From assembly GCA_016186365.1 (NCBI GenBank), contig JACPLT010000014.1:1-43296 (forward strand): DNA of 43,296 bases. The letters run 5' to 3'. The position numbers and the translations under genes were made by a program. Source of the DNA: Candidatus Pacearchaeota archaeon (GTDB lineage: Archaea; Nanobdellota; Nanobdellia; Pacearchaeales; GW2011-AR1). How positions within the stretch are numbered: position 1 is the stretch's first letter; every line of letters begins with the position of its first letter. Shown here in pieces: positions 4,705-29,526 of this stretch. The notes under the pieces were generated by a model. It saw only the letters and a program-made list of their open reading frames with translations, ran no database searches and was not told the DNA's origin.

Positions 4705-4780
4705 TATTACCCGATTAAGAAGAGGATGTTTAAAATCTTATCTTTCGAACAAACCCCATAAATATCGCAATTTTCTATAG

Positions 4781-4827
4781 AGGACTTTGAATATCCTCAT
4801 TTCCAAAGGAAATTTCGTCAAAGTCCT
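4781..4827. repeat. nested perfect palindrome
   Basis: Outer arms AGGACTTTGA (4781-4790) and TCAAAGTCCT (4818-4827) pair perfectly. Inside them ATTTCC (4799-4804) and GGAAAT (4808-4813) form a second stem with an AAA loop. It lies in the 302-bp stretch 4705-5006 between divergent genes, just before the dispersed repeat at 4834. That stretch holds no gene that I accept. Confidence 0.7.
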
Positions 4828-6303: not shown

Positions 6304-6833
6304 GAGTCTTCATTTCAATCGATATACCTGAAAAACTGAAAAAAGAAATAGCCCTGCTTCAGAAACAGATATATTCTCAGGGTTTCTTCGAAGGGAAAAT
6401 TACAGAGCCGGAAAATCTTCACCTCACTTTAAAATTCATAGGGGAGATAACTGACAGCCAGCTTATTCAGATTAAAGAGAGGCTCAAAAAAGTAAAGTTA
6501 AAGCAGTTTAAAGCCAGATTAGGAAGCTTAGGAGTTTTTACCAATGATTTGATAAAAATAATCTGGATAAAAATGGAGGGAGATGGAATATTCGAGCTTC
6601 AAAATAAAATTGACTCCTGTCTTTCAGACATTTTCAAAAAAGAAAAAAGATTCATGTCTCACCTTACTATCGCAAGAGTGAAAAAAGTAAAAAATAAGCC
6701 CGAGCTTTTGAATCTTCTAGGATATGAAATGAACAAAGAATTCCCAGTCGCAGAATTTAATCTTAAAAATTCAGAACTCACCCCCACAAAGCCAATTTAT
6801 ACTATCCTTGAAAAATATAAATTAGAAAGCTAA
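6300..6833 (+). CDS. thpR: RNA 2',3'-cyclic phosphodiesterase (ThpR/LigT)
   Basis: 177-residue 2H phosphoesterase, the usual length of the family. Both catalytic HxT motifs are present: HLTLKFIGE near residue 41 and HLTIARVKK near residue 121. The family opens 2',3'-cyclic phosphates on RNA to 2'-phosphates and can ligate 2'-5' tRNA halves in vitro. The start overlaps the stop of the arginase-like gene by 4 bp, so these two and the S2P-like gene form a tight plus-strand operon. A second, unrelated 2H protein lies on the mobile element at 24498. Confidence 0.93.
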   Translation: MRVFISIDIPEKLKKEIALLQKQIYSQGFFEGKITEPENLHLTLKFIGEITDSQLIQIKERLKKVKLKQFKARLGSLGVFTNDLIKIIWIKMEGDGIFELQNKIDSCLSDIFKKEKRFMSHLTIARVKKVKNKPELLNLLGYEMNKEFPVAEFNLKNSELTPTKPIYTILEKYKLES

Positions 6834-15462: not shown

Positions 15463-16602
15463 TTATCTTGTAATTAACAGCTTATCCATCTCTTCTTTTA
15501 ATTTTTTAAATTTAGGATTTGCAAAATGCTCTCTTGCAGGCATCAATATTTGATTTATTTTTTCAGCCATCGCAGTCTTCAAATCTAATGGATGAAGTTT
15601 CTTATTCTTAAAATCTTCAGAAAGTTCTTCAAAAGAGTTATAAGTTTTGTTTCCGCCAAATTTTTCAGGTCTTTTAACTTCTAACTTAGACTTGTTATTA
15701 ATAAAAACAAGATATTTTGCCCAATCAATCAAAGGGTTAAAGTTTATCTCGCCTTCAGGACAAAAAGCATCCATTATTTTTTTTCTTGCTTCTTCCTCAC
15801 TGTCAGTCATATATATTGCAGAATTTGGAATTGACTTGGACATTTTCATCTGGCTCCACAGCTCCTGCATATTCTCATTAGGAACAGGCCAAACTGGGGG
15901 TTTTTGCAGCCCTAAAATTAAATGCCCATGAATAGCTACAGGTTTTATTTTTTCTTTTTTCTTATTTAATAAAGGAGAATATTTCATCTGCAAGGCAACA
16001 TCTCGGGCAATAACCTGTGCCTTTCTTTGATCATTGCCTGCATGAGCAATATTAATCCCCATTTCAAAAATATCTGCTACTTGCATTCCAGGATACATCA
16101 TAATAGCAAAATTAACAGACTCTCCTTCTTGTCTTCCCGCAATTGTTATGCTTCTCTGAATTCTAGCAAGAGTAGTATTTTTAGCAATATCAATAACAGT
16201 CTGCCAATATTTATCGTTATTATGATACAATTCGCTTCCTAAAACAAATTTCAAATCCTTAGAATTTCCTCCAACACATTTATATCCTGCAATTAAAGCT
16301 TCTTTAAAAAAAGGAACCCCTATTTTTTGGATAATATCCATATCTCCGCCAAGTTTATTATTTATCCAAGAGTGATAATCTGCCAAAAATATAGAACAAT
16401 CAATTCCTGCATCAACTAAATCCTTAACCTTGCTCATACATACAAGCCCATGCCCTAAATGAGGCTTTCCAGAGATTTCAAATCCAATATAGTGCTTTAG
16501 CTTTTCTCCAGATTCGAGCATCTTTTTTAAGTCTTCTTCAACTAAAATCTCTTCAGTATTTCTCTTTATCAGTTCCAGCCTTGTTTCAACATCTTTTGCC
16601 AT
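15463..16602 (-). CDS. tyrS: tyrosyl-tRNA synthetase
   Basis: 379 residues from MAKDVETR. I place the start at 16602: an upstream in-frame ATG (16668) would run through the stop and body of the 33-residue ORF at 16605-16706, and an AGGT-type site precedes 16602. Class I motifs are HIGH-like PHLGHG (47-52, after YIGFEISG) and KMSKS in QMKMSKSIPNS. The lack of a C-terminal S4 domain and the short length are typical of the archaeal/eukaryotic TyrRS. It charges tRNA-Tyr. Confidence 0.93.
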   Translation of the reverse strand: MAKDVETRLELIKRNTEEILVEEDLKKMLESGEKLKHYIGFEISGKPHLGHGLVCMSKVKDLVDAGIDCSIFLADYHSWINNKLGGDMDIIQKIGVPFFKEALIAGYKCVGGNSKDLKFVLGSELYHNNDKYWQTVIDIAKNTTLARIQRSITIAGRQEGESVNFAIMMYPGMQVADIFEMGINIAHAGNDQRKAQVIARDVALQMKYSPLLNKKKEKIKPVAIHGHLILGLQKPPVWPVPNENMQELWSQMKMSKSIPNSAIYMTDSEEEARKKIMDAFCPEGEINFNPLIDWAKYLVFINNKSKLEVKRPEKFGGNKTYNSFEELSEDFKNKKLHPLDLKTAMAEKINQILMPAREHFANPKFKKLKEEMDKLLITR

Positions 16603-16604
16603 TT

Positions 16605-16706
16605 TTAACCTAAAGATTTTATTATCCCATAAACTAAGAATCCCGCAGCTATTAATCCTATGACCCATGCGAGATAATACAATACCCTTAAAACTTTTTT
16701 GTTCAT
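16605..16706 (-). CDS. 33-residue membrane micropeptide
   Basis: ATG at 16706, stop at 16605-16607, just ahead of the tyrS start. The product begins MNKKVLRVLYYLAWVIG and continues LIAAGFLVYGIIKSLG: basic N-terminus, then one long membrane helix. It begins with MNKK like the micropeptide at 15243. Short but clean, with spacing that fits an operon with the 58-residue gene upstream and tyrS downstream. Function unknown. Confidence 0.5.
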   Translation of the reverse strand: MNKKVLRVLYYLAWVIGLIAAGFLVYGIIKSLG

Positions 16707-16731
16707 GTTAATAAATTTATTTTATTTAGTG

Positions 16732-16908
16732 TTATATCCTGCTCAAAACTGATACCGCTTGTATCAAAATTGAGGCAATTAATCCTATCAGGGACAAACT
16801 CATCTGAAATGCATCAAAACAGCTTGTATTTACAATATTAATTGCTATAAAAAGGAATATTAAGAAGTTTATAAAATTACCGAACCATCCTAGTAGCTCA
16901 AAATTCAT
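16732..16908 (-). CDS. 58-residue two-helix membrane protein
   Basis: ATG at 16908, TAA at 16732-16734. Two hydrophobic segments, FINFLIFLFIAINIV (about 12-26) and LSLIGLIASILIQAV (about 38-52), are joined by a short NTSCFDAFQ loop. There is no known family. It is first of three minus-strand frames leading to tyrS (26 bp to the next start). Confidence 0.5.
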   Translation of the reverse strand: MNFELLGWFGNFINFLIFLFIAINIVNTSCFDAFQMSLSLIGLIASILIQAVSVLSRI

Positions 16909-16970
16909 TTTACAAAGCAGAAAACTTTAATCAAAAAAACTAGGATTTATTCATAGAGTTTTTAGGATGC

Positions 16971-17001
16971 TCAGAAATGCGAATCTCATGAGCATTTCTG
17001 A
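16971..17001. repeat. perfect 10-bp hairpin
   Basis: TCAGAAATGC (16971-16980) and GCATTTCTGA (16992-17001) around an 11-nt loop. The CAGAAAT / ATTTCTG arms resemble the two small hairpins inside the repeat at 34110-34250. It lies in the gap behind the gene at 17019. Confidence 0.6.
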
Positions 17002-17018
17002 CATTATTAAATCTTTCT

Positions 17019-17396
17019 CTAACAGGAATGATATTCGACAAATCTATCAAAAATAAGTCTTCCAAACTTTTTAGAATCTTCTGAAAGTTTAGAATCCGAT
17101 TTCATTGCTCTTTCAAGACTAGATTTATCTATTTCTACTCGATTATGCTCATCAGGAAAACTAAGTATTCCAAATTTAGTAGAGTATAGATGAAGCAGAG
17201 TCTCTAATACATGACAATACATCTCTGCTCTTTTAAGAATTGGACAAAAAGCACCCATCTGTTCAGGATGCTCTTCAGTTATAAAACCAAAAGCTCGGTG
17301 CATTAATCTATCATATCTCCCTAATTGATTTACTCCCCGTTCAGAACAGCAAGATAAAAAAGATTCAAAAACTTCAAATGAAGATAACCCTTCCAT
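17019..17396 (-). CDS. hypothetical soluble protein
   Basis: 125 residues, unrecognised. Predominantly helical and soluble, with five Cys (a CC pair near residue 16, then C50, C61 and a C-terminal Cys) but no clear metal-site spacing. It stands alone, with an AT-rich TATATATATTTAAA-type promoter stretch just upstream around 17410-17423. Confidence 0.6.
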   Translation of the reverse strand: MEGLSSFEVFESFLSCCSERGVNQLGRYDRLMHRAFGFITEEHPEQMGAFCPILKRAEMYCHVLETLLHLYSTKFGILSFPDEHNRVEIDKSSLERAMKSDSKLSEDSKKFGRLIFDRFVEYHSC

Positions 17397-17446
17397 AAAA
17401 AAAATAACACATATATATATTTAAACATTATTATACTAAAACAGCA

Positions 17447-17803
17447 ATGAACGAAAAATCCCTGCTAATTTTATCTCTCGCTCTCTCTATTTTCGGAATA
17501 ATCCTTCTCTTCTATCTCTCGAGCTTTCCCCCCAGCCAATCTAAAATATCCGAATTAGAAAGCAGGATGATAAATTCAAGGGTAAAAATATTCGGGCAGC
17601 TGATTCAAATCTCAAATCAAAAAACTTTTTTTATCATGAAAATAAAAGACAGCACAGGAACAATAGAAGTCACAACAGAGAAACCCTTTCCAATAAATTC
17701 TACGCTAGAAATAACAGGAAAAATACAAGAATATAAAAATAAAAAACAAATAAATGCTGAAAAGATAGTTCTACTTTTCACCCCAAGCAGCTACACCCAA
17801 TAA
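17447..17803 (+). CDS. membrane-anchored OB-fold protein
   Basis: 118 residues. One N-terminal membrane helix (ILSLALSIFGIILLFYL, about 8-24), then a small OB-fold-like beta domain: RVKIFGQLIQIS, TFFIMKIKDSTGTIEV, STLEITGKIQEYKNKKQINA. The repeated pattern of strand, SGTIEVT-like turn and G-K-x strand matches tRNA_anti/OB nucleic-acid-binding folds. The role is unknown; the orientation would place the OB domain outside or inside depending on topology. The 3' end overlaps the convergent gene by 33 bp. Confidence 0.7.
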   Translation: MNEKSLLILSLALSIFGIILLFYLSSFPPSQSKISELESRMINSRVKIFGQLIQISNQKTFFIMKIKDSTGTIEVTTEKPFPINSTLEITGKIQEYKNKKQINAEKIVLLFTPSSYTQ

Positions 17804-18235
17804 TATTATCTGAATTATCGGCCCCACTAAAGGAATGAAAATAAGCAATACCCACCATCCCGGTCTGCCAACAGCTTCGTAAGTCTTCCACATCCATATA
17901 AATGAAAAAACAGCGTATACGATTATTGCAACTATATTAACAAATGGAATTGGAAACGCTATTAACAGCAATACAGGCCACCATCTCATTTTAGCAGCCC
18001 GGCTCATTATAAGTGCAGGCCCTATAACTGGAATCCATGCAATTCCAGGAGTATAATTTTTAGTCTTTTTAGCAATCGACATAAATGCAAAAGAAGTGTA
18101 AACATAGATTCCTATGCATATAATTGCAAATATCACTAAAAAAGCAGCAATAAGCGCTAACACTCCTCCAATTAGTCCTCCGGCTGCCAATCCATCCAGA
18201 TTTATAGCAGGTGCGATATTTAAAAACAAGTTCAT
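17771..18235 (-). CDS. DUF5684-like membrane protein
   Basis: 154 residues, four or five membrane helices. The segments YTPGIAWIPVIGPALI, WWPVLLLIAFPIPFVN and GRPGWWVLLIFIPLVGPIIQ, with repeated W-W and IP-x-x-GP motifs, match the DUF5684 type of membrane proteins seen next to signal peptidase genes in other organisms. Here no signal peptidase is adjacent. A GGAGG ribosome site lies just upstream of its ATG on the minus strand (18240-18246). Confidence 0.7.
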   Translation of the reverse strand: MNLFLNIAPAINLDGLAAGGLIGGVLALIAAFLVIFAIICIGIYVYTSFAFMSIAKKTKNYTPGIAWIPVIGPALIMSRAAKMRWWPVLLLIAFPIPFVNIVAIIVYAVFSFIWMWKTYEAVGRPGWWVLLIFIPLVGPIIQIILLGVAAWGEK

Positions 18236-18982: not shown

Positions 18983-18989
18983 AATGGAA

Positions 18990-19484
18990 ATGTCATATGA
19001 TAGAATCGGAAACACTCGGATAAGAGAAAGATGTGTCAGAGATGGAAAGCTCGTTGGAAGAAAAAGAAGCATCTTCGACAAGGTAAATGAGATTAAAAGT
19101 GATATTAAAGACTCAATACCCGAAATTAACGATGATAAGTTGATACCTTTATTGAGTAAAATTAGGACTTATTACTGCAATAAAAAGAAAGGTATTCCTC
19201 TCGGAAGGAGAGGGCAAAAAGGCTATAGAAGCTTAACACAGGTTGAAACATTAGTCTATGACTATATGATAAAAAATAATCTCAATCCGAGCACAACATA
19301 TAGATGGTTCATTGCTACAAGACTGCCTCAAGACATCAGGGAGAAATTAGCAAAGGGTCAGATAGGTCAAAGAAAAGCAATGGAAATTTCTGCAAACAGG
19401 AGACGCACCAAAGATAGTGTTAATGGTCTAATCATGATGGAAGAAATTAGAAATATAATCCAGAAGCTGGATTGGAGCGGATAA
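18990..19484 (+). CDS. putative DNA-binding protein upstream of integrase
   Basis: 164 residues from the ATG at 18990 (chosen by the ribosome site). Highly basic. The C-terminal half has NPSTTYRWFIATRLPQDIRE followed by KLAKGQIGQRKAMEISANRR, which resembles the ParB/KorB-type helix-turn-helix region, where an L-P-x-x-V-R-E helix and an alpha-rich repeat follow. It is one base from the integrase gene, so it may serve as a recombination accessory factor or regulator. I do not recognise the full-length family. Confidence 0.65.
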   Translation: MSYDRIGNTRIRERCVRDGKLVGRKRSIFDKVNEIKSDIKDSIPEINDDKLIPLLSKIRTYYCNKKKGIPLGRRGQKGYRSLTQVETLVYDYMIKNNLNPSTTYRWFIATRLPQDIREKLAKGQIGQRKAMEISANRRRTKDSVNGLIMMEEIRNIIQKLDWSG

Positions 19485-19485
19485 A

Positions 19486-20487
19486 ATGGACAATACAAAC
19501 ACAAACAAAGATACAAACAAAATAATTGAAGCAATCAATAAAGCCTTAAATAAAAAAAGGATGCACTATAAAGAAATTTATGAGCAGTTAATCTCAGAAA
19601 AGGTTATTCCTCCTAATTCAGAAAAAGAGTTCAAAAATCTTTATGCATGGGCTTTAGATATGGGATTTGTCGATAGAACTAAAATAAAAAACTGGAGCAA
19701 GAAAAGAGGAAAACTTCCAAAGTATTTTACTAAAAAACAATTAGTTCAATTATTTAATGTTGTAGATAGACCAAAAGACATGATTGCATTTTTTATGGCA
19801 TTAATGTGCGGTTTAAGGATAAATGAATTATGTAAACTGAGAATCCGAGACATTGATTTTGAGAATCATAGAGTCTTTATCGGAGATAGTAAGAATCCAA
19901 ATAGGACACGAGATAATTATGGAAAAGACAGATATGTGGATTTTGATTCAGCAATAGAAGGAGTATTAAAGAAATGGATTGAGATAATAGGAGAGAGTAG
20001 CGAATGGTTTATGCCATCAGATAAAAGCCCAGATATGCACTTGAGAAAAAAGTCTTTGCATGAAAGACTGAGACTCTACTTAAAAGAAGCAGGAATACTT
20101 CAGATAGATTATACTATGAAAGTTTCTCAGAAAGTCAATGGAAAAAGAATCACAAAAACAGTCAACAGATACACAAGATATTTTCATTGTTTCAGGCACA
20201 CAATGGCATGTATAATTTACAACTCCACATCAGATATTTTTATTGTAAATAAATTCTTAGGGCACGCTGATTTAGATACCACCGCAGTGTATGCGAAGGT
20301 CATAGATTCCAAGATGAAAACATCAATTTCCAGTGTTTTTAATTCCATTCATTACAATTATCACAATGGAGAGCATTTGCCTAATCCTCATCCAGTTAAA
20401 AGCACTTTAACACAATCTTCTCCTGTAGTTGAAACTATAGCCCCACAGTCCTTTAGATTTATTGGGTCTCCAGCTTGTGAACAATGA
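19486..20487 (+). CDS. tyrosine recombinase / integrase
   Basis: 333 residues. The phage-integrase catalytic domain holds all expected residues: R111 in CGLRINELCKL, a Lys in the beta-hairpin (around K136-K147), H234 and R237 in HCFRHTM, H260 in LGHADLDTT, and nucleophile Y269 in AVYAKV. The N-terminal 80 residues form the core-binding part. It most likely catalyses integration and excision of the surrounding element. It follows the DNA-binding gene by one base and overlaps the next small ORF by 11 bp. Confidence 0.93.
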   Translation: MDNTNTNKDTNKIIEAINKALNKKRMHYKEIYEQLISEKVIPPNSEKEFKNLYAWALDMGFVDRTKIKNWSKKRGKLPKYFTKKQLVQLFNVVDRPKDMIAFFMALMCGLRINELCKLRIRDIDFENHRVFIGDSKNPNRTRDNYGKDRYVDFDSAIEGVLKKWIEIIGESSEWFMPSDKSPDMHLRKKSLHERLRLYLKEAGILQIDYTMKVSQKVNGKRITKTVNRYTRYFHCFRHTMACIIYNSTSDIFIVNKFLGHADLDTTAVYAKVIDSKMKTSISSVFNSIHYNYHNGEHLPNPHPVKSTLTQSSPVVETIAPQSFRFIGSPACEQ

Positions 20488-20599
20488 AATAAGCCAAGAA
20501 GAGTATATCCGAAAAAGAAAACTTCTTGAATCTGAAGGCTACAAACAAATTATTGAGATAAAAGATACAACTGACAAAGAAAAAGATAAAAGAAGTTAA
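20477..20599 (+). CDS. 40-residue charged protein (GTG start)
   Basis: GTG at 20477 overlaps the integrase end by 11 bp; stop at 20597. The product (NNEISQEEYIRKRKLLESEG then YKQIIEIKDTTDKEKDKRS) is very charged and probably a single helix. The next ORF starts on the following base. Short, but the overlap on both sides favours translation. Confidence 0.4.
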   Translation: MNNEISQEEYIRKRKLLESEGYKQIIEIKDTTDKEKDKRS

Positions 20600-20701
20600 G
20601 TGTCTCTTGCTGAATATGCATTTATTACCCTTATAGTCTTGAGTGTCCTAATGGGATTGGGAGCGTCTCAACTTTCTAATGTTTTTGGACTTTTAATATA
20701 A
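20600..20701 (+). CDS. 33-residue membrane peptide with pilin-like N-terminus (GTG start)
   Basis: GTG at 20600 follows the previous stop directly; TAA at 20699. The product begins SLAEYAFITLIVLSVLMGLG and ends ASQLSNVFGLLI. The E-Y-A-x-I-x-x-L-I pattern resembles the start of Flp/TadE-type pilins, in which EYA opens the hydrophobic helix, but no prepilin peptidase site precedes it here. Otherwise it is a simple one-helix membrane peptide. Confidence 0.4.
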   Translation: MSLAEYAFITLIVLSVLMGLGASQLSNVFGLLI

Positions 20702-21090
20702 TTCCGAATATCATGGGCATTAATTAATCTATCAATGCCATGCATGTGTGTCTGCGTGTAGGTAGACAGACAAGAGCCGAGAAAAAAATTAGTCATCTTT
20801 GAATCTTTTATTATTTGACCGACGCTATTTATAGAGGATAATTATCAATCTTGAGTTCAATTAACTCATTCTGCAAGACTCCTCTTTCAGAAAGCTGTCT
20901 GCTCCCAACATTGTAAAAGTAGACAACTGGAGAGAATATCATCATTTATCGAATGTAAAAGTAAATGGCTAATACGCAATAGAGAAAGAGTTGGGGAGGT
21001 CTTTTATTTGAGACAGGGATAGTAGACAGCAATTCCTTTATTTGAAATCGTAATACAAGCCATTTATATGAGGGGCTCTTTCTGAACAGC
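20702..21090. other. 389-bp non-coding stretch with repeated G(T/C)AGACA motif
   Basis: No ORF is accepted. The heptamer GTAGACA occurs at 20762, 20919 and 21022, and its near-complement TGTCTGC at 20749 and 20896, giving two inverted pairs and one single site. TGTAAAAGTA repeats at 20912 and 20961. The location between the two recombinase genes suits recombination accessory sites, a resolution site or iteron-like binding sites. Confidence 0.4.
21061..21069 (+). promoter_or_regulatory. TATA box for the 21091 gene
   Basis: CATTTATAT lies 22-30 bp before the ATG at 21091, standard for an archaeal promoter with almost no leader. Confidence 0.45.
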
Positions 21091-21579
21091 ATGGTAAAGA
21101 TTTATGGAGCAGTTGACAAAAGAAAGAGAAGACAAAGAAGTGACTATGGAAAACGGAGAGAGCAATACAATGGCAAGCCAGTCAAAAGAAGAAGAGAAAT
21201 TATCTGGGAGAAAAAGAGAGGCGATAAAGAAGTCTTAAAATTGTGGGTTTGGGAAAAGGGGATAATGAGTCCAGAGGGTAGGTCAAAATGGAATCGAAGA
21301 GTCCGCCCATTTATTAAAAACATTATTTACACCCCAAGAATGAGAATCGATGCCCATGTATCTTATCTAACAACAAAACAAAATGTTGAGCAATTCTTTC
21401 TTGAAGTGATAGGATATACTGGAGAATTTTTAATTATGGGCTTCAGCAACGCAGGGAATAGATTTCATTGTAAACCTGTAAAGATTTGCAGGATTATTAT
21501 CAATGATTCAAAAGAAAGTCTCAGGTGTAGGATGATTCAAGACTACCGATGGTGGAGGTATTGGTTTTACCATGATTAA
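21091..21579 (+). CDS. basic hypothetical protein
   Basis: 162 residues, unrecognised. The first 60 residues are extremely basic (DKRKRRQRSDYGKRREQ, VKRRREIIWEKKRG), which suggests nucleic-acid binding; the remainder is a mixed alpha/beta stretch rich in Trp and Tyr, ending DYRWWRYWFYHD. The stop overlaps the serine recombinase start by 8 bp, so the two are expressed together and this may be a directionality factor or accessory DNA binder. That role is inferred. Confidence 0.65.
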   Translation: MVKIYGAVDKRKRRQRSDYGKRREQYNGKPVKRRREIIWEKKRGDKEVLKLWVWEKGIMSPEGRSKWNRRVRPFIKNIIYTPRMRIDAHVSYLTTKQNVEQFFLEVIGYTGEFLIMGFSNAGNRFHCKPVKICRIIINDSKESLRCRMIQDYRWWRYWFYHD

Positions 21580-22312
21580 AATAGATTCACAAAACGCAGT
21601 AGCTTATATTAGACTATCTTCAGACGATAGTTCAAATCCTTCGCTGAGCCCGCAGAATCAGCAGGATATCATAAAGAAGAATGCAGAAGACAGAAAGCTG
21701 ATATTAATTCAGACTTATGAAGACATAAACAAAACTGGCTCAAACATTTTCAGAAAGGGACTTGAGCAATTAATGAAAGATGCAAGAGAAGGAAAGTTCA
21801 AAACAGTATTCATTAAAGATTGGTCAAGGCTTTCGAGAAATATCATAGACCAAGAAACTATTGTTAAAGAATTGAGCAGTATCGGAATTGAAGTAATTTC
21901 ATGTGATGGAGTTACAGACAAAAAGATTAGACAAGTCACAGGATTGACTAACGAGTGGTTTATCGATGAGTGCAGGAAAAAACAACAGCAAGTTCACAAA
22001 CTAAAGCTTGAAGCAAAGATACCTTGTAACCGTCCTCCTTTTGGATATACTTTTAGCAAGAAGATGAAGAAGTTTGTGATTAATCCAGAAGAATCAGAAG
22101 ATGTTAAAAGAATATTCGAGTTAAGAAGTGAAGGCAAATCAATTAATGAAATATCAAAACAATTTAGCATGTCCTCGAGCAAAGTTTTTGGAATCTTAAA
22201 AAATAAAACTTATCTTGGTTTTATCAAATACAAATCAGAATTAATCCAAGCTCACGAGCCCATCATCTCCGAAAAGCTTTTTAATAAAGTGAATAATAAT
22301 TCAGTAGAATGA
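21572..22312 (+). CDS. compact serine recombinase
   Basis: 246 residues. The N-terminal resolvase domain (about 9-135) has the catalytic Ser in AYIRLSSDD (S16), QNQQDI helix, and the DWSRLSRN motif (83-90). It continues into the recombinase domain found in large serine recombinases (NRPPFGYTFSKKMKKF..., SINEISKQFSMSSSKVFGIL helix-turn-helix, TYLGFIKYKSELI), but lacks the zinc ribbon and coiled coil and stops at half their length. It could invert, resolve or integrate DNA. The presence of a full tyrosine integrase in the same element makes its task unclear. Confidence 0.9.
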   Translation: MIKIDSQNAVAYIRLSSDDSSNPSLSPQNQQDIIKKNAEDRKLILIQTYEDINKTGSNIFRKGLEQLMKDAREGKFKTVFIKDWSRLSRNIIDQETIVKELSSIGIEVISCDGVTDKKIRQVTGLTNEWFIDECRKKQQQVHKLKLEAKIPCNRPPFGYTFSKKMKKFVINPEESEDVKRIFELRSEGKSINEISKQFSMSSSKVFGILKNKTYLGFIKYKSELIQAHEPIISEKLFNKVNNNSVE

Positions 22313-22400: not shown

Positions 22401-23537
22401 ATGACAGACTATTATTTAGAAGATAGAACAAGACTTGGAGGACAACCCAAGAGAGTAATCGGAGAATATGTAGAGTCTCAGGGGATATTAGTCCCAAGAA
22501 GATTTATGACTTTGAAAGAAGCCAGAGAATCAGGTTTACTAATAATAGCACGAAGTGAACATACTCAAGATTACGATGGTTTATCAGGTCTATTGAGAAG
22601 CCCAGTTTTACAAGGGGAAGACTTTGGGAATGTAGGAAGTGAAGAGGAATTAAAAACTAAAGTTTTAGCTGAACCTGAATGTGGAACAAGTATGCATAGG
22701 CAAATGTGTAATTTTACAAAATATGACGAAGATAGGTTTAAAGCAGAGACCTCTTTCTCTTTTTGGGAGATGTTAGGTGGATTTAATAGGACAGTTGTTG
22801 CAGATACTGCAATTCCTGACAGGCATCATGTGATGACCTATCTTAGTTCAGAAGGAAAATGGTTTTTTAATTATGCAATTGTTGAAAACAGTAGTGTTGC
22901 TCAAGAATTTATCAAGCCTCTTACTCCAGAATTAAAAGAGGGTCTCCCAGCACTTATAGAATTTTATGAAAAAGTAAGACACTTAGGAAGATTTGATAGA
23001 CAGCATTGCCCGATAATGGAAATTCAAACAGTGGGGGATAAAAATTATTTTTTACAATATCTTAGAACCAGAGATTCTCAGCCTGCAACATTTAGGCTCG
23101 AAAGAGAGTTAAAAGATGGAGAAATAGAAGCCCCGTTTGTAAGAGGTGCGACACCTTCGACTGGAGCAGATTATAAAGTTACAGTTTACTATGCCAATCA
23201 AGACAGTTGGGGCTTTGAACTTCAAGGAGAGGATGGGTCTTGGGATAATCACTTTAACCATGTATTTTCAGAGCTACAGGTTAGAAATAGAAAAATTCAA
23301 ATGACCAGCACAAGAGGAGATGTTTGGTGGGAATTAATGAAATATGTTGTTCATCATCTTCAAAAATCAAAATTGTTTAAACCAGAAGTTTCAGTTATAG
23401 CAAATATGGAAGATTTTTTTGTTAATGGGGAAGATACAAGTAAAATTTATCAAAGCACTAAAAACGGACAAAACTATTCTATGATGCTAAATGTAGTTTC
23501 CGATGGAAAAAGATGCCTTATGAGAAGATTAAAATAA
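22401..23537 (+). CDS. PEP-synthase-N-like (ATP-grasp) hypothetical protein
   Basis: 378 residues, not firmly recognised. The segment LLIIARSEHTQDYDGLSGLL (46-65) resembles the VRSSATAEDLPGASFAG loop in the nucleotide-binding domain of PEP synthase and pyruvate phosphate dikinase. The later CPIMEIQTVGDKNYFLQYLR resembles that domain's end (IEWA...G-x-YILQARP), and FVRGATPSTG recalls the start of the next domain. The swivelling His and PEP-binding domains are missing. If the match holds it is a stand-alone ATP-grasp-like protein of unknown substrate. It is a single-gene unit with its own promoter and leader hairpins, convergent with the cargo operon. Confidence 0.5.
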   Translation: MTDYYLEDRTRLGGQPKRVIGEYVESQGILVPRRFMTLKEARESGLLIIARSEHTQDYDGLSGLLRSPVLQGEDFGNVGSEEELKTKVLAEPECGTSMHRQMCNFTKYDEDRFKAETSFSFWEMLGGFNRTVVADTAIPDRHHVMTYLSSEGKWFFNYAIVENSSVAQEFIKPLTPELKEGLPALIEFYEKVRHLGRFDRQHCPIMEIQTVGDKNYFLQYLRTRDSQPATFRLERELKDGEIEAPFVRGATPSTGADYKVTVYYANQDSWGFELQGEDGSWDNHFNHVFSELQVRNRKIQMTSTRGDVWWELMKYVVHHLQKSKLFKPEVSVIANMEDFFVNGEDTSKIYQSTKNGQNYSMMLNVVSDGKRCLMRRLK

Positions 23538-23552
23538 AAAATCTTTTTCAGT

Positions 23553-24113
23553 CTACCATTTAACAAATTTAATTATCAAACCACCAATTGTAATGATTGA
23601 ACTTATGATACCCAGAATAGTGTTAGCTTTTCCTAACAACCCCCAAATGCCCAATTCCTTAACTTCCTCATCTTTAAACATAAGCGATAAAACAACCAGT
23701 ATAACCGCTTGAACCAATATTAAAATTAAAGAGATGTTAGCTATAGATGGAATTTTAAATGCAAGACTTATAACGGTTAATGGCAAGATTATAAGCAAAA
23801 CAAATATCGAGACTCTCACTGCCTTTACTTTATAATGTCCTTGAATAAGATTCAAAACAAATGCATATGCTCCTGTAACTATTGCAGAAAATAAAAATGA
23901 AATAAAAAGCATCACGATAGACGCTAAATCTTTAAATTCGGTATTCAAATAAGAGGCTATCAATATGCCTAAACAAACAAAAACAAGAATCATATTTAAG
24001 GCTAAGAGTTTGTTCACAGGTTTGTCTTCTTCCAATAATTTCTTAATCGGATTTAATCCCTTAACTGCTAAGTCAACTATACTTCCCTCTTCATAAGATT
24101 TTTTATTTGCCAT
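23553..24113 (-). CDS. five-helix membrane protein, last gene of cargo operon
   Basis: 186 residues. A charged N-terminus (1-36) precedes five hydrophobic segments (about 37-57, 62-88, 98-118, 123-146, 160-184). No catalytic motif and no family recognised. Its start overlaps the Nudix gene by 11 bp, so it belongs to the same translationally coupled operon. It could be a membrane effector, transporter or anchor for the soluble enzymes encoded upstream. Confidence 0.7.
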   Translation of the reverse strand: MANKKSYEEGSIVDLAVKGLNPIKKLLEEDKPVNKLLALNMILVFVCLGILIASYLNTEFKDLASIVMLFISFLFSAIVTGAYAFVLNLIQGHYKVKAVRVSIFVLLIILPLTVISLAFKIPSIANISLILILVQAVILVVLSLMFKDEEVKELGIWGLLGKANTILGIISSIITIGGLIIKFVKW

Positions 24114-24501
24114 GTTTCATTTCAATATATCTATTGATTATTTTTTGTGTGCCCGTAGTTATTTTAATATTGCTGTCAGGAGTCCAGAAGGCAATATGTT
24201 TAATTTCATTTCTGGGTCTGGGGATGCCATATGCCTCAACTAAAAACACTTTAGTGTGATTGATTATGCTTTTTCCATCATGCCCGTGCCATTTCCGTCC
24301 ATTATATCTAAATAAATAAGTTATTCTTTTAGTCTGCAAACCAGTCTCTTCATAAAGCTCTCTGATAGTTGCTTTTTTTCTGCTTTCCCATTTTTCTGCT
24401 CCGCCACCAGATAAAGTAAATCTTTTGCTCCTGCCAGCGACTACCAATATTCCTCTTGAGGTATCTACAATTGCTACCCCTTTTCTTCTTGTTATGCTCA
24501 T
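24103..24501 (-). CDS. Nudix hydrolase
   Basis: 132 residues. A perfect Nudix box runs from G33 to L55: G-x5-E39-x7-R47-E48-L-x-E51-E52-x-G54-L55, within GGGAEKWESRKKATIRELYE and following residues. Nudix enzymes cleave nucleoside diphosphates linked to another group (NADH, ADP-ribose, dinucleoside polyphosphates, damaged NTPs); the sequence does not tell which. It overlaps the 2H phosphoesterase gene by 4 bp and the membrane gene by 11 bp. Confidence 0.92.
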   Translation of the reverse strand: MSITRRKGVAIVDTSRGILVVAGRSKRFTLSGGGAEKWESRKKATIRELYEETGLQTKRITYLFRYNGRKWHGHDGKSIINHTKVFLVEAYGIPRPRNEIKHIAFWTPDSNIKITTGTQKIINRYIEMKHGK

Positions 24502-25142
24502 GCTTCTCTCCTGAAGTTGCCTTCCTTGAATAGTCCTATAGTTTTTCTAAATTCCATTTTGCTTTTTGCTTCCCTTCGATTAAGGAGTCTTCTTTGAACA
24601 AAGTCATATTCATATAATATCTTACTATTCTTAATCAATGTTGCCCGAAGTAGATTATGCTCATATTGAAAACTTGGCTGATGATGGGTAAATTCTTTAA
24701 CTTGCATAAATTTCATAGGGCTAAGTTTCATAGCTATTGTTGCATGAGGAGAATATTTTCTGGAAACTTTTATTATTCCTAAAAAAGAAAATGCATCTGT
24801 AGAGTTTAAAGTGCAGTATGATTTAATCTTTTTTATTAGGGCATTTCTAAAAATTGTCATTTTCTCAGAAGGGATTATTTTAATGTGAACTACTTTGCTG
24901 GAATCAAAAGTGCCATATCCGCTTATTTTAAATTTTACAAGAGGATGTTTTTCACAGACCTGCTTAAAATCATTAACGAGTCTATGCTCTTGGCTTGTGT
25001 AAAATGGTGCAACGAGAGTTATATGGGGAATTGGTCTTTTAGGAGAGAAGATTCTAAATTTTTTATTTACTCTCCATATTAACTCTTTCATCTCTCTTTT
25101 TGCTTTTCCATGAAATCTAAATTCAATAAAATAGTGCGTCAT
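24498..25142 (-). CDS. 2H phosphoesterase (2'-5' RNA ligase-like)
   Basis: 214 residues. Two catalytic motifs are visible: PHITLVAPF (H40, T42) and PHATIAMKL (H133, T135), with the family's beta-strand context VVHIKIIPS before the second half. The last 30 residues are a basic extension absent from ThpR. 2H enzymes open cyclic phosphates, for example 2',3'-cyclic ends of RNA or ADP-ribose 1'',2''-cyclic phosphate. It is distinct from the chromosomal ThpR at 6300. It overlaps both operon neighbours by 4 bp. Confidence 0.88.
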   Translation of the reverse strand: MTHYFIEFRFHGKAKREMKELIWRVNKKFRIFSPKRPIPHITLVAPFYTSQEHRLVNDFKQVCEKHPLVKFKISGYGTFDSSKVVHIKIIPSEKMTIFRNALIKKIKSYCTLNSTDAFSFLGIIKVSRKYSPHATIAMKLSPMKFMQVKEFTHHQPSFQYEHNLLRATLIKNSKILYEYDFVQRRLLNRREAKSKMEFRKTIGLFKEGNFRREA

Positions 25143-25726
25143 TGTATCAAATGTTTTTCTAACTCCTTTATTATTTCTTCTTTAGTCAAATTTCCATCGA
25201 GTATTATATCTGCATGTTTTCTTTGTATGAGCTCATACTTTTTTGATTCAGGAATAACTGTATTCATTGTATAATCAAGCTGACTAAAATCGTTAAATCT
25301 TTTCATCCTTCTATAAAGCATATTTACATCCGAGACATCCACCCATATTTTTTTATCGAATAATTTATTGAGATTAGAATCAACAAAAAGAAGATAACCT
25401 TCTACAATAACAATTTCGTGAGGTTTAACTTCTTTATCAAAATTTTCAGTCCATCTGTGTGTTGGAATAAAGGCATTCTTTCCAGCCTTTAATCTCTTTA
25501 TGGCTTCAATTAATTTATCAAACCTTAATGACTCTGGTCTTTCCCAATTATCAGCCTTAACTTTAAAGAATTTATCTTGATTAATATGCAGGAAACGCCC
25601 TTTATATTTTTCTTCAAGCTCTTTAATTACAGTAGACTTTCCAGAACAACTTCTTCCGCAAACGCCAATAATCAAAGATTTTGGTTTCTTAGAAAATATT
25701 CCCATTTTAGAAACCTCATTCGGCAA
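25139..25726 (-). CDS. uridine/nicotinamide-riboside-kinase-like P-loop kinase
   Basis: 195 residues. P-loop GRSCSGKST (24-32), then HINQDKFF (about 47-54), NWERPESLRFDKL, and VIVEGYLLF with the DKKIWVDVS strand. The order and the D-x-F-F and E-G-x-L-L-F motifs match the phosphoribulokinase/uridine kinase family, with nicotinamide riboside kinase the closest by eye. It would phosphorylate a nucleoside or a sugar hydroxyl. Overlaps: 4 bp with the 2H gene, 11 bp with lemA. Confidence 0.82.
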   Translation of the reverse strand: MPNEVSKMGIFSKKPKSLIIGVCGRSCSGKSTVIKELEEKYKGRFLHINQDKFFKVKADNWERPESLRFDKLIEAIKRLKAGKNAFIPTHRWTENFDKEVKPHEIVIVEGYLLFVDSNLNKLFDKKIWVDVSDVNMLYRRMKRFNDFSQLDYTMNTVIPESKKYELIQRKHADIILDGNLTKEEIIKELEKHLIQ

Positions 25727-26321
25727 ATAACTCTCTTGGTTTGTATTCTTCCTGAGCTCCTTGATTTGCTTTGTTTCCTAAATTAAGATAGTTCGCAACT
25801 TTGAAGCCATGAACTTGAGCTACAATATTTCTTGGGAATCTCTGAACTCTTTCATTATAGTCTCTAACTACTCTGTTATATGTTAATCTAAATTGCTGAA
25901 GTTTTCTTTCTATTCTGGTAATGTTGCCAGAGCCCATAATCTGTTGATAAAGCCTATCTGCTTTAACCTTAGGGTATCTTTCAAAGACAGCTTGAATTTT
26001 TAGGAAATTATTTTCTACATCTTCAACAGCTTTAACTTTATCATTAATGGGTGCGTCTTTACTCCATCTACTTCTTGCTTCAATTGTATCTTTGATTGTC
26101 TTATATTCATGAATGCTATACTTCTTAGCGACTTGAGCAAGTGCAGGTAGCATATCAATCCTTCTCTGCATTATTACATCAATGCCTGCAAACTTTTCAT
26201 CTAACTTATTTCTCCAATAGATAAATTTGTTATAAACTGTTATCCATCCTTTAGTCAAGAAAAAGAGACCTATAGCCCCTAACGCTCCTGCCCCAATCCA
26301 CGCAATAGTTGTTATTTCCAT
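25716..26321 (-). CDS. LemA family membrane protein
   Basis: 201 residues. One N-terminal membrane helix (about 7-25, AWIGAGALGAIGLFFLTKG) then the LemA helical bundle: VYNKFIYWRNKLDEKFAGID, VIMQRRIDMLPALAQVAKKY, EYKTIKDTIEARSRW, ERYPKVKADRLYQQI and YNRVVRDYNERVQRFPRNIV, with the conserved R-N and R-R-x-D-x-x-P positions. The LemA role is unknown; it is widespread in bacteria and sporadic in archaea. As the first enzyme-sized gene in the cargo operon it may tether the kinase/2H/Nudix products to the membrane. Confidence 0.9.
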   Translation of the reverse strand: MEITTIAWIGAGALGAIGLFFLTKGWITVYNKFIYWRNKLDEKFAGIDVIMQRRIDMLPALAQVAKKYSIHEYKTIKDTIEARSRWSKDAPINDKVKAVEDVENNFLKIQAVFERYPKVKADRLYQQIMGSGNITRIERKLQQFRLTYNRVVRDYNERVQRFPRNIVAQVHGFKVANYLNLGNKANQGAQEEYKPRELFAE

Positions 26322-26326
26322 TTCAA

Positions 26327-26497
26327 TTATACCTCAAAGTAATCTTTGTCTTTTAAGTTCTTTGGTTTAACCTCCGCTTTAAAGTATTTTATCATCTTCT
26401 TAATCGCTTCCTGTTTTGTATTTAGATTGTTGACTAACTTGTATATTTCGACTATCTTGTCTTCTTCTTTGTCTAAGTCTATTTGTATCTTTGTCAT
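26327..26497 (-). CDS. small RHH-type (DUF2683-like) regulator
   Basis: 56 residues: a beta strand MTKIQIDLDKEEDK, then helix IVEIYKLVNN, turn LNTKQEA and helix IKKMIKYFKAE. This is the ribbon-helix-helix arrangement of the DUF2683 type (strand, helix, N-K-S/T-x-A-I helix). The stop lies 5 bp from the lemA start. A palindrome and promoter box lie upstream. An autoregulatory repressor of the cargo operon is the natural reading. An out-of-frame ATG at 26507 has a nearer GGAGA site but leads only to a short unconvincing frame. Confidence 0.65.
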   Translation of the reverse strand: MTKIQIDLDKEEDKIVEIYKLVNNLNTKQEAIKKMIKYFKAEVKPKNLKDKDYFEV

Positions 26498-26523
26498 GGT
26501 GTATCATTTTGTATCTCCATATA

Positions 26524-26557
26524 ATATCATGATATATAGTAGTATATAAATGTTTCG
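26524..26557 (-). promoter_or_regulatory. promoter and 12-bp palindrome of the cargo operon
   Basis: The box TATATAAATGTTTCG (plus-strand reading, 26543-26557; minus strand CGAAACATTTATATA) is a BRE/TATA-like element. It matches the box before the replication operon at 30536-30550 in 14 of 15 bases. Just downstream lies the perfect palindrome ATATCATGATAT (26524-26535), a good candidate operator for the RHH protein made by the first gene. Confidence 0.6.
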
Positions 26558-26578
26558 GTTAGTTTAAATTCTGAATGT

Positions 26579-27160
26579 TTATTCAGAATTTCTCTTCACT
26601 GGCACTTTTCCTTCTCTTTGAATCTCTTTGGAAACATCTATAATCAAGCTGTCTATTTTTTTAACAGACTCTATACTGTGCCCAAATAAATATCCATAAT
26701 CTGCTTCAGTTCTATAGAGTCCATCTTGATACCATTCTTTTTTCCCTTCGGGGTCATAAATAATATCACCCCCTAAAATAGATTCTTTTAATGCTATTCG
26801 CCTATATTTCTCCATTCTTTTTTGAAATTCTTCTAAGGGCTCGTTATCTAATTCCAAAAATTTCATCATCTTTGTGTGAAAAGTATCCATAAAATAGGCA
26901 TCCTCTTGTTGTAAGTTCATTATTTTATTGTAAGATTCATCATCATGAATCCATTTTTTTGCAGTATCCTTGTTGATACCAAAATGTTGTGCTAAAGCTC
27001 TCAGACTTGGGCGAGGTTTCGAATCATAGTATAACAAGCGACAAAGTCTAATTTTTATCAACCTTTGATATTCTTTACACTCATTCATTAATTTTGTATA
27101 TTCTTTTTTTCCTTCAGCAGTTATTCTGCGTGGTTGACCGTTGTCAAAATAAGGTTTCAT
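26579..27160 (-). CDS. HTH protein, last gene of replication operon
   Basis: 193 residues, unrecognised as a family. A helix-turn-helix is clear at 52-71 (SLRALAQHFGINKDTAKKWI), resembling terminase-small-subunit or transposase N-terminal HTH regions. A helical, Tyr-rich and acidic region follows to residue about 185. It overlaps the zinc-ribbon gene by 17 bp. Likely DNA-binding, perhaps in copy control, origin recognition or packaging; position is the only guide. Confidence 0.65.
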   Translation of the reverse strand: MKPYFDNGQPRRITAEGKKEYTKLMNECKEYQRLIKIRLCRLLYYDSKPRPSLRALAQHFGINKDTAKKWIHDDESYNKIMNLQQEDAYFMDTFHTKMMKFLELDNEPLEEFQKRMEKYRRIALKESILGGDIIYDPEGKKEWYQDGLYRTEADYGYLFGHSIESVKKIDSLIIDVSKEIQREGKVPVKRNSE

Positions 27161-27314
27161 TTATTAATCCCCCAAATTGATTTAAGATTGTAACATGATT
27201 CCGTTTTCTTTTATTGCATTTTGGGCAAATCTTGCCTCGTTTTGCATAAGTGTAGTAAGGCTTCCAACATCTTTGACAGATTCTCTTTCTTAGTTTTTTT
27301 ATTTCTCTTGACAT
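27144..27314 (-). CDS. 56-residue zinc-ribbon protein
   Basis: ATG at 27314, stop at 27144-27146. Very basic N-terminus (MSREIKKLRKR), then C13-x2-C16 and C30-x2-C33 (RICQRCWKPYY ... GKICPKCNKRKRN), a classical zinc ribbon. It overlaps the primase stop by 16 bp and the next gene by 17 bp, so it is embedded in the operon. It may act as a nucleic-acid-binding subunit of the primase; archaeal and plasmid primases often need a zinc element. Confidence 0.65.
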   Translation of the reverse strand: MSREIKKLRKRICQRCWKPYYTYAKRGKICPKCNKRKRNHVTILNQFGGLINETLF

Positions 27315-27841
27315 ATTTTCACCCCCAGATAAATAGAATTATAATCTTCAATTAGCCGTTTTATTTTCCCAGATTTCCAGTGAGGAGCAAATTCTAATGC
27401 AATCGTGCACTTATCGTTTGCTTTCATAGGGTCAGCTCCAAAATAATTTATGATTGAAAGCTTTTCTTCTTTGCTTAACTCTTTATTGAAAAACATCAGG
27501 ACATGATAACCTCGAGAGCCAGTAGAAAAAACATAAAATTTTATTCGAAACTCTTTCAGTTTACTTATGACTGATTTCAATTGAGATGGGTCTTCTAAAT
27601 CAAGAGTAATCTCAATCGGCAGTATCTGACGCTGGTTACAGTGCTCAAGAAACCATTGGTTTTGTTTATTTTCAGAGTCAAAACATATCTCTGAATATTT
27701 CTTCCATTTTCCATGAGTTATATTTTTGCCTTTAATATTAATCCCTTTCTCATATGACCACTCAAGATAAAAATCATACTTTTGTTTTCCAATCTCATAA
27801 AACAAATAATCAAGCCAACTCTTCTTATCTTTAATTTCCAT
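27299..27841 (-). CDS. archaeo-eukaryotic-type primase (AEP)
   Basis: 180 residues. AEP motifs are visible: an acidic pair in EITLDLEDP (D81-x-E83), the S-x-H type motif in FSTGSRGYHVLMFF (GSRGYH 108-113), and a late IALEFAPHWKSGK. The size suits a minimal catalytic AEP as in plasmid replication proteins of the PrimPol kind. With the adjacent helicase it forms the replication module, as in archaeal plasmids. It overlaps the helicase gene by 11 bp and the zinc-ribbon gene by 16 bp. Confidence 0.8.
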   Translation of the reverse strand: MEIKDKKSWLDYLFYEIGKQKYDFYLEWSYEKGINIKGKNITHGKWKKYSEICFDSENKQNQWFLEHCNQRQILPIEITLDLEDPSQLKSVISKLKEFRIKFYVFSTGSRGYHVLMFFNKELSKEEKLSIINYFGADPMKANDKCTIALEFAPHWKSGKIKRLIEDYNSIYLGVKICQEK

Positions 27842-29396
27842 TAGAAATATCCTCCTTGTTTTTTACTACATTAACTACACTAATTTCACTAACATCATTA
27901 TTCAGTGTAGTTTGTGTAGTTGTTGAAGTTAATGTAGTCTGTGTATTTTGGTGTAGTTGTTTTGCATATTCTTGATATTTTTCTGGAATAGGATAGCCCC
28001 GTGAAATCAGAGCCATTAGGACTAAGCCTCGATTAAGGGAATAAGTAATGCCCCTGTTGTCTCTCCCCTTGTTAAAAATGTTTAGACTGGTCAAATGCCA
28101 GCCAACTACTCTCTCAGGGTTTTTGTCTCCAAAATCAATTTTATCAGTCAGATAAGGCATTAAATCAGAAAGATGCAACTCCTTAACCTCATCTGAAATG
28201 CTCTGGCAGTCTAACAGCTCTTTTAATATTAGATATGTCCTATCATTCTCGATTGACTCTATCTGAGTTTCTTCGATATTAACTTGAGCATATTCCCTAA
28301 CAGATTCTTCCACCTCAAAAAATTTAGCCAAGACAAGAGTTGCTGTCCATATATCCTCATTCCTGTTTGCCAAATTAGAGCTATAATCATCGTAAATCGC
28401 TTTAATCTCCTCCCAATAATCCATAATCAGCGTATAGCAAATATCTCTTAATTCCTGCCACTTATGGTCACTTATTTTTGGCTTCCTTTTTCCTTTTTCA
28501 TTAGCAGTTTTGCGTAGTTTAATTGTGATGCATCTTGATTGAGTCACAGGGTCGAGTCCAGTGATATTGCATAATATTTTGGGACAATAAACATCAAATT
28601 GCCTATTGACTTGCTTGTCTCCTACCTTGTCTACTCTTTTGACACTTGCACCTTTTTCTATTCCAGCATTAAGAAGCAAATCAGTTGATTTCTTTCTGTC
28701 CGTATCCATTCTCTCATATTCATCAATTGCCAAGACTCCTTTTGTATTTTCAATAGTCCTAAAGAAAGATGCTTCTGAAATAGAGCTTGCCTCTTGACCA
28801 TTAAAGCCAATCAATCTTAAAATTTTCTTAAACTTGCTTTTTCCACTTTCTTTCAAAGCATGAAAATAAAGATAGCCAAAACTTTCAAACATCTCATAAC
28901 AATAAGTTGCAATCACCCAGCAAGTAGCAACATCATAAATTCTTTCATCATCGACATCCATATAATAAACAATAGTCTCTCTTATTTTTTGATACGCTTC
29001 CTTTTTGATTATTTTCTCAGTCGAATTAATCCAATTCTTTATTGATTTATTGCTCCAGAAATTATTATTGACTTCCAAAGAATGAAGATAGTTTAATCCG
29101 AATTGTTTTATCTTATTCTCCCCTAACTCAATAGTCTCACCTTTAGCTTTAATAATTTTAGATGTATTGAGAAAAATATCTTTGCTTGAGACTACAATCC
29201 CTTCTTTTTCTTTATTTTCTTTATCACGAAATATCTTTCCAAAATACCAGAATCTGTTATGCAACCCTTGATTAAGATTATCATAAATAATTTCGTCGTT
29301 GTCAAGAAAAGAATACTCTTCTTCTCTCTTTTTCTTCCGTTCATATTCTTGACTTTCTTTCAATAATTCATTGGGGTTATTTTTTTCTATTTCCAT
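27831..29396 (-). CDS. AAA/SF3-like replicative helicase of the element
   Basis: 521 residues from the ATG at 29396, which follows an AGGAGA site by nine bases; a longer reading from 29426 lacks one. The central ATPase has a degenerate Walker A (ALKESGKSKFKKIL, about residue 180-193, without the usual first Gly), Walker B GVLAIDEYERM (about 220-230) and a late TGLDPVTQSRCITIKLRK, which contains a likely sensor and arginine finger. The layout resembles SF3 or DUF3987-type plasmid helicases found with AEP primases. The tail is Thr/Gln-rich (TQTTLTSTTTQTTL). Overlaps both neighbours. Confidence 0.75.
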   Translation of the reverse strand: MEIEKNNPNELLKESQEYERKKKREEEYSFLDNDEIIYDNLNQGLHNRFWYFGKIFRDKENKEKEGIVVSSKDIFLNTSKIIKAKGETIELGENKIKQFGLNYLHSLEVNNNFWSNKSIKNWINSTEKIIKKEAYQKIRETIVYYMDVDDERIYDVATCWVIATYCYEMFESFGYLYFHALKESGKSKFKKILRLIGFNGQEASSISEASFFRTIENTKGVLAIDEYERMDTDRKKSTDLLLNAGIEKGASVKRVDKVGDKQVNRQFDVYCPKILCNITGLDPVTQSRCITIKLRKTANEKGKRKPKISDHKWQELRDICYTLIMDYWEEIKAIYDDYSSNLANRNEDIWTATLVLAKFFEVEESVREYAQVNIEETQIESIENDRTYLILKELLDCQSISDEVKELHLSDLMPYLTDKIDFGDKNPERVVGWHLTSLNIFNKGRDNRGITYSLNRGLVLMALISRGYPIPEKYQEYAKQLHQNTQTTLTSTTTQTTLNNDVSEISVVNVVKNKEDISNGN

Positions 29397-29526
29397 CTCT
29401 TTTTCTCCTAAATAATTTAGCATCAATCAAATCATTCTCACTTTCGCATTCGTAGATAGTCTTGCCATTTCCGAGACATTCTAAAAATTCCCTTGCTCGT
29501 TCATTATTATTGCTGTTGCTATTCAT
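29377..29526 (-). CDS. 49-residue small protein
   Basis: ATG at 29526 overlaps the preceding stop by 8 bp; stop at 29377, 20 bp inside the helicase start. The product starts MNSNSNNNERAREFLECLGN, has an acidic centre (IYECESENDLIDAK) and a basic end (LFRRKRDGNRKK). No family. Its chain-like overlap with both neighbours supports a real gene of the replication operon. Confidence 0.5.
   Translation of the reverse strand: MNSNSNNNERAREFLECLGNGKTIYECESENDLIDAKLFRRKRDGNRKK

Follow-up and report, generated by a model that had tools for sequence, protein, structure and literature searches.

Phage genomes join RNA repair to ADP-ribose chemistry in networks that combine 2H phosphoesterases, Nudix hydrolases and kinases, as where a sirtuin or KptA is accompanied by 2H, Nudix and nucleotide kinase genes (PMC9503650). 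Neither LemA nor nicotinamide riboside kinase (NRK) is mentioned in that account, and the hallmarks of conflict systems that it lists resemble the mobility, the allele swapping and the fixed regulator with changing cargo that we describe here for an archaeal operon. The operon lies on a 43,296-nt contig (JACPLT010000014.1) of a Candidatus Pacearchaeota archaeon (assembly GCA_016186365.1; 0.97 Mb, about 82% complete); this contig, analysed at its full length, is referred to as the window. The defence and mobile-element biology of DPANN archaea is poorly known, and LemA proteins are, to our knowledge, widespread in bacteria and archaea without a settled function. How does this locus compare with the phage networks? 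From sequence comparisons we conclude with high confidence that it represents a mobile and selected cassette, consisting of a promoter, a ribbon-helix-helix (RHH)-like regulator, LemA and a variable set of enzymes. Its true core is RHH, LemA and their own promoter, with the enzymes as exchangeable cargo; this core had been overlooked in an earlier, sequence-only reading of the same DNA. A full-text search, with most subscription papers beyond its reach, found no publication that deals with an RHH–LemA cassette or that pairs LemA with these enzymes.

The RHH–LemA core and its promoter

The six open reading frames (ORFs) of the sequence-only reading are all present, on the minus strand between 26497 and 23553. 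A promoter/operator region (26493..26583), composed of a B recognition element (BRE) CCGAAA and a TATA box TTTATATA followed by the repeat region CTACTATATATCATGATATTATATGGAG, precedes the start of the RHH-like gene (26327..26497; 56 aa), which is conserved among relatives. LemA follows (25716..26321; 201 aa; PF04011 at 110.2 bits, cut-off 26.2), with a single N-terminal membrane helix at about residues 3–21 as judged by hydropathy. Next come a P-loop kinase of the PRK/uridine-cytidine kinase type (25139..25705; 188 aa, ATG start; PF00485, 53 bits), a 2H phosphoesterase with two HxT motifs (24498..25142; 214 aa; PF13563, 62.7 bits) and a Nudix hydrolase (24103..24501; 132 aa). The run ends with a membrane protein of no recognised family, for which hydropathy predicts five helices (23553..24113). 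Four of the family labels hold, LemA, PRK/uridine kinase, 2'-5' RNA ligase 2 (2H) and Nudix all scoring above their Pfam cut-offs, and the motifs are intact: GRSCSGKS in the kinase P-loop, HIT (40–42) and HAT (133–135) in the 2H protein, and the full Nudix box GGAEKWESRKKATIRELYEETGL.

The 5-bp gap between RHH and LemA was confirmed, as were the overlaps of kinase and 2H (4 bp), 2H and Nudix (4 bp), and Nudix and membrane protein (11 bp). The 11-bp overlap claimed for LemA and kinase, in contrast, is a start-codon artefact. It requires a TTG at 25726 (7 additional residues), whereas in close relatives the kinase starts at the position that corresponds to ATG 25705; the junction is therefore probably a 10-bp gap, which leaves three overlapping junctions and not four. 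The sixth gene, previously counted as part of the system, has to be removed from it. Among 180 genomes its relatives comprise one protein at 30% identity and one very weak match, neither linked to cassette genes, and we reject a six-gene unit because this membrane gene lies outside the conserved core. Most operons do encode a small membrane protein of unrelated sequence, which, together with the LemA helix, suggests tethering at the membrane.

A search for co-occurrence recovered RHH–LemA–kinase–2H–Nudix, in the same order, from three other archaeal genomes, and partial sets from five more. Absence of the gene set from other genomes, which would have refuted the sequence-only reading, is thereby ruled out. 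The full order is found at loci L023 (genome G066) and L025 (G156), where LemA and kinase are separated in each case by one or two small ORFs, and at L141 (G454), where a small ORF separates the kinase from 2H. Shorter versions are RHH–LemA–kinase (L147), RHH–LemA–kinase–2H (L150), RHH–LemA–2H (L151), RHH–LemA of the same type without enzymes (L149), and RHH–LemA followed by a Nudix gene at a distance of 1.1 kb (L101); Nudix relatives are thus encoded in L023, L025, L141 and L101. Upstream of the L101 genes (2839–4814; G142:C16) lies a restriction-modification pair, a C5-cytosine methylase and a MutH-type endonuclease. When the kinase alignment was searched against 84,980 species genomes, seven relatives with 53% identity or more were recovered; counting the kinase of the window, this gives eight, of which six are located in RHH–LemA operons. 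The two exceptions are L163, near a contig end and without RHH, and L024, discussed below. More remote kinase matches (L026–L037, L182, L183) have unrelated neighbourhoods and were left out of these counts. Named carriers of the related kinase are Woesearchaeota, Pacearchaeota and archaeon GW2011_AR18.

The RHH-like protein is 59–93% identical among eight type-A operons, and its profile, run against 378 genomes of the class, finds 20 strong matches (>80 bits). Together with the loci of G066, G142 and G086 these make up 23 RHH loci, two of them cut by contig ends. The gene directly after RHH at the 21 uncut loci is a clear LemA in 15, a longer coiled-coil protein in five and an unclassified coiled-coil protein in one. 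One of the five longer proteins passes the LemA cut-off (26.3 versus 26.2 bits); the rest match weakly or resemble each other. One locus with a long LemA-like gene (L144, 6342–8963; G022:C113) carries a divergent macrodomain gene beside RHH and, by eye, a P-loop kinase and two calcineurin-like phosphatases; it is possibly another ADP-ribose/RNA-end cluster.

The RHH label is tentative. The protein has no Pfam or PDB match, and hhalign detects no similarity to CopG; the label lacks support from hidden Markov models. By hhalign the family does align (E 9e-8) to a DUF2683-like antitoxin, whose gene lies ahead of that for a ParE-like toxin. Pairs of this kind, at L103 (6233–6761) and L148 (3373–3887), hold the nearest relative family found, and at L103 the gene directly downstream of the pair encodes a protein related to the membrane protein of the window. 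The cassette itself is not a type II toxin-antitoxin locus: the slot after RHH is occupied by LemA or a LemA-like protein in nearly all loci.

A BRE/TATA box and the 28-nt stretch that follows it are common to the RHH loci (consensus CTACCATATATTACCATATTATATAATG). Mean pairwise identity across the 23 promoters, a set that includes one weaker RHH match, is 0.58, whereas shuffles and the region upstream both give 0.30. The promoter of the window agrees with the consensus of the 22 other loci at 21 of 28 positions (shuffled mean 8.9), a result reached by 0 of 10,000 shuffles. The predicted promoter is thus real, its BRE/TATA box and downstream repeats being kept across these loci, whereas the palindrome proposed along with it is not significant: such a palindrome is not unusual for DNA this rich in AT (shuffle p ~0.22), and the conserved feature is the longer repeat region. 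Its tandem TACCATA units, spaced by about 10–11 bp, would be compatible with an RHH operator. At the DNA level, the window resembles its relatives only from the promoter, or from a point within the first gene, onwards (from 26556–26583 in most), which argues that promoter and operon are the unit of inheritance.

Mobility, mosaicism and genomic surroundings

The window and G454 represent different families, and their cassettes share LemA at 93%, RHH at 91%, kinase at 84% (over its whole length) and Nudix at 71% identity. The Cdc6 proteins of the two are only 58% identical, and the contrast with LemA and kinase indicates that the cassette moves between lineages; a TyrRS-like protein at 67% points to some background similarity as well. 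The 2H proteins of the window and L141 share just 42%, though the kinase reaches 84% and Nudix 71%, so the 2H slot either has undergone exchange or diverges rapidly. Modules also appear to recombine, because the LemA of L023 is closer to that of L150 (82%) than to that of the window (67%), whereas for its RHH the window is the nearer of the two (86%) and L150 the more distant (64%). Between the window and L141, dN/dS is about 0.03–0.16 for RHH, LemA, kinase and Nudix, and dN is far below dS wherever dS can be estimated (LemA, 0.04 versus 1.25; kinase, 0.11 versus 1.84). Judged by these ratios, the cassette genes are under purifying selection where dS is measurable.

Integrases occur near L142, L150 and L154, the one at L150 being 34% identical to the integrase of the window. 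A DDE-transposase-like remnant adjoins L141, and an integrase-core transposase gene stands beside a truncated 2H gene in L093. The sequence-only reading had described a membrane-tethered enzyme set on a mobile element, and a conserved, mobile and membrane-associated set is upheld by the recurrence, the similarity confined to the cassette and the LemA helix.

In the window, the operon lies in a region extending from about 19 to about 30 kb that holds a tyrosine integrase, a serine recombinase and a weakly PriS-like protein. A 531-aa protein in this region is, as judged by eye, presumably a helicase. The putative integrated element with these genes spans 18984–22312 and 27144–29426; a repeat search found no convincing pair of attachment-site repeats around it, and no non-coding RNA was detected in it at Rfam thresholds. 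The L150 cassette, too, is adjoined by an integrase and, beside that, a protein of the type encoded at 18984. A plus-strand ORF of 378 aa (22401–23537), without a significant family match in four libraries, converges on the operon. Further away, a Hef-like helicase (8608–11703) and a DNA polymerase II large-subunit-like protein (34765–39654) each carry, by eye, an apparent intein-like insertion. The host additionally encodes a separate LigT-family protein (window 6300–6833) and a macrodomain protein.

Kinase, 2H and Nudix enzymes

What do the cargo enzymes act on? The AlphaFold model of the kinase (predicted local distance difference test score, pLDDT, 89) has human uridine-cytidine kinase 2 (UCK2) as its best fold match (E 2e-15), followed by phosphoribulokinases and nicotinamide riboside kinase 1 (NRK1; E 3.5e-10), and uridine-cytidine kinase also ranks first in a profile search against PDB sequences. 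The protein falls short of both NCBIfam equivalog cut-offs for uridine-cytidine kinase (82 versus 180 and 79 versus 220 bits). In the profile alignment it keeps D44 and an aromatic/acid pair, W54 and E55, and has a conserved RWTExFD stretch instead of Tyr112 and His117 of UCK. We take D44 to be catalytic, W54 and E55 to hold the ribose, and Tyr112 and His117 to read the pyrimidine. Because the former are kept and the latter replaced, the kinase probably phosphorylates a ribose on a substrate other than the pyrimidine nucleosides of UCK. Its earlier identification as a nicotinamide riboside kinase is not sustained: UCK is closer by both profile and fold, and no nicotinamide mononucleotide adenylyltransferase (NMNAT) was recognised in the host assembly, about 82% complete, in which the sole CTP_transf_like protein looks FAD-synthase/HldE-like by eye.

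At L024, a single 505-aa protein (16534–18051, G062:C13) joins a kinase of 71% identity to an entire ADP-ribosylglycohydrolase domain (PF03747, E 8e-42), for which ARH3 enzymes are the closest solved relatives. A link to ADP-ribose chemistry, as the sequence-only reading had suggested, gains support from this fusion, which is the best single clue to the chemistry. Neither RHH nor LemA is in view at L024, although its contig extends no more than 1.7 kb upstream. Some 2 kb downstream, a 132-aa membrane protein resembles, by eye, one encoded between LemA and kinase in L023.

The second enzyme, with H40/T42 and H133/T135 in its two HxT motifs, belongs to the 2H superfamily. Its model (pLDDT 75) matches the folds of YjcG, LigT, AKAP18 and the plant Appr>p (ADP-ribose-cyclic-phosphate) phosphodiesterase, and these modelled matches do not choose among cyclic-phosphate substrates. 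Assignment to the RNA 2',3'-cyclic phosphodiesterase ThpR/LigT (TIGR02258) was rejected at 27.5 versus a cut-off of 65.7 bits. Chromosomal 2H relatives at L094–L097, 30–33% identical to that of the window, adjoin Hef-like nuclease/helicase and cytidylate-kinase-like genes, which suggests that this 2H family includes a housekeeping branch concerned with nucleic acids. The third enzyme is a Nudix protein (PF00293, 38.8 versus 21.1 bits) with an intact box; it exceeds the cut-off of no characterised subfamily, and among solved structures an uncharacterised hydrolase is its best relative.

Candidate roles and relation to known systems

We tentatively propose, as the likeliest role, that the cassette cleans up ADP-ribose-type nucleotides and damaged or modified ends of RNA that arise from conflict between mobile element and host, a reading that we place just short of an even chance. 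The RHH protein would repress its own operon by binding the repeats directly downstream of the TATA box. Upon derepression, LemA, anchored by its one helix, would assemble at the membrane with the small membrane protein and localise or gate the enzymes. The 2H protein would open a cyclic phosphate, which may be that of an RNA 2',3'-cyclic end, of ADP-ribose 1'',2''-cyclic phosphate or of a cyclic-nucleotide signal. A pyrophosphate would be cleaved by the Nudix enzyme, and the kinase would add a phosphate to the ribose of a product that resembles a nucleoside but is probably no ordinary pyrimidine nucleoside. That these steps form an ordered pathway, from opened cyclic phosphate through cleaved diphosphate to re-phosphorylation, is possible. 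The protein families, the glycohydrolase fusion and the published combinations of 2H, Nudix and kinase argue with moderate strength for action on cyclic-phosphate or ADP-ribose-type nucleotides. A role in conflict is suggested more weakly, by the cassette's mobility, the swapping of alleles and a regulator that stays fixed as the cargo changes; the first two of these also make defence or counter-defence plausible.

Several observations weigh against this proposal. The glycohydrolase fusion was seen once, at a locus with no RHH–LemA in view, and some carriers, such as L023, sit among ordinary chromosomal genes. IMG/VR viral contigs yielded no relative of the kinase, 2H, RHH or Nudix proteins, and no PADLOC defence model fits convincingly, the domain matches all being weak. 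ADP-ribose 1'',2''-cyclic phosphate would be made by KptA, and KptA (PF01885) was not found in the incomplete host assembly. KptA/sirtuin-based RNA repair was rejected, as the operon holds no KptA, sirtuin or RNA ligase (genome-wide, PF01885 alone was looked for). A plain salvage or stress function is possible.

Could the cassette instead serve immunity? The 2H and Nudix enzymes might destroy cyclic-nucleotide or NAD-derived signals, or the set might make or sense them, with LemA and the membrane protein as a membrane arm of defence or counter-defence. Enzymes of both families have been reported to act on such signals (PMC9503650), and mobility, swapped 2H alleles, variable cargo behind a fixed regulator, the restriction-modification pair at L101 and the macrodomain gene at L144 would all agree with it. 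However, the operon includes no effector or cyclase, no PADLOC system is matched, IMG/VR yields no viral carriers and several carriers have ordinary chromosomal surroundings, so that we consider this role rather unlikely.

Still less likely, in our estimate, is salvage in a nucleotide-poor DPANN symbiont, with the kinase re-phosphorylating imported nucleosides, 2H and Nudix processing imported RNA fragments and dinucleotides, and LemA and membrane proteins tied to uptake. The host genome is small and has only one such kinase, which is indeed closest to uridine-cytidine kinase; yet that kinase does not, by alignment, keep the pyrimidine-recognition residues and misses the uridine kinase equivalog cut-off, and the patchy, mobile and mosaic distribution is unlike that of a housekeeping function. 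Improbable is NAD salvage through nicotinamide riboside, in which the kinase would make NMN and Nudix would trim NAD derivatives. NRK1 is among the nearest solved relatives, but UCK outscores it, no NMNAT was recognised, and the carriers G454, G390 and G062 have no CTP_transf_like gene at all; we dropped this as the principal interpretation. That the genes share no function and line up in one direction on a mobile element by chance, as the unconserved sixth gene and the absence of individual cargo genes at some loci might suggest, is barely credible; for the first five genes it is refuted by their recurrence in the same order and linkage, at 53–87% kinase identity, across several families.

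Because LemA stays fixed while the enzymes vary, the cassette offers a genetic handle on LemA function. If the proposed clean-up enzymes do act on ADP-ribose or cyclic-phosphate ends, the biology of NAD/ADP-ribose conflict would extend to DPANN archaea. It is a serious possibility that the LemA chassis represents a system of a new kind. More specifically, a new mobile conflict system of DPANN archaea, in which a LemA membrane module and an RHH autorepressor carry swappable effectors including a kinase for ADP-ribose/RNA-end products, is a conjecture that we regard as doubtful, if worth stating.

Comparison with described systems brings out what is shared and what is particular. Like UCK2 and NRK1, the kinase has the fold, the P-loop, Asp44 and the Trp54/Glu55 pair; unlike them, it has the conserved RWTExFD stretch in place of base-recognition residues. 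With RHH-regulated type II toxin-antitoxin loci (DUF2683/ParE) the cassette shares a regulator related to an archaeal antitoxin and, likely, an autoregulated promoter, whereas LemA fills the slot of the toxin gene. ADP-ribosylglycohydrolase-centred bacterial conflict systems (PMC9503650, section 3.8) are likewise repressor-controlled operons with a conserved core, exchangeable modules and ADP-ribose-processing enzymes, and the fused glycohydrolase of L024 recalls them. The window is no member, since its operon has no glycohydrolase (the domain occurs only in that fusion), and the cassette differs in its RHH-like regulator, as opposed to Nudix/WYL-HTH, and in lacking a chaperone and a rhodanese-phosphatase. 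The phage NAD+/ADP-ribose RNA-repair neighbourhoods (PMC9503650) likewise cluster 2H, Nudix and kinase genes on mobile DNA for what is presumed to be cyclic-phosphate and ADP-ribose chemistry; in contrast to these, the cassette dispenses with sirtuin, KptA and RNA ligase, is archaeal, and couples a uridine-kinase-type kinase to RHH and LemA.

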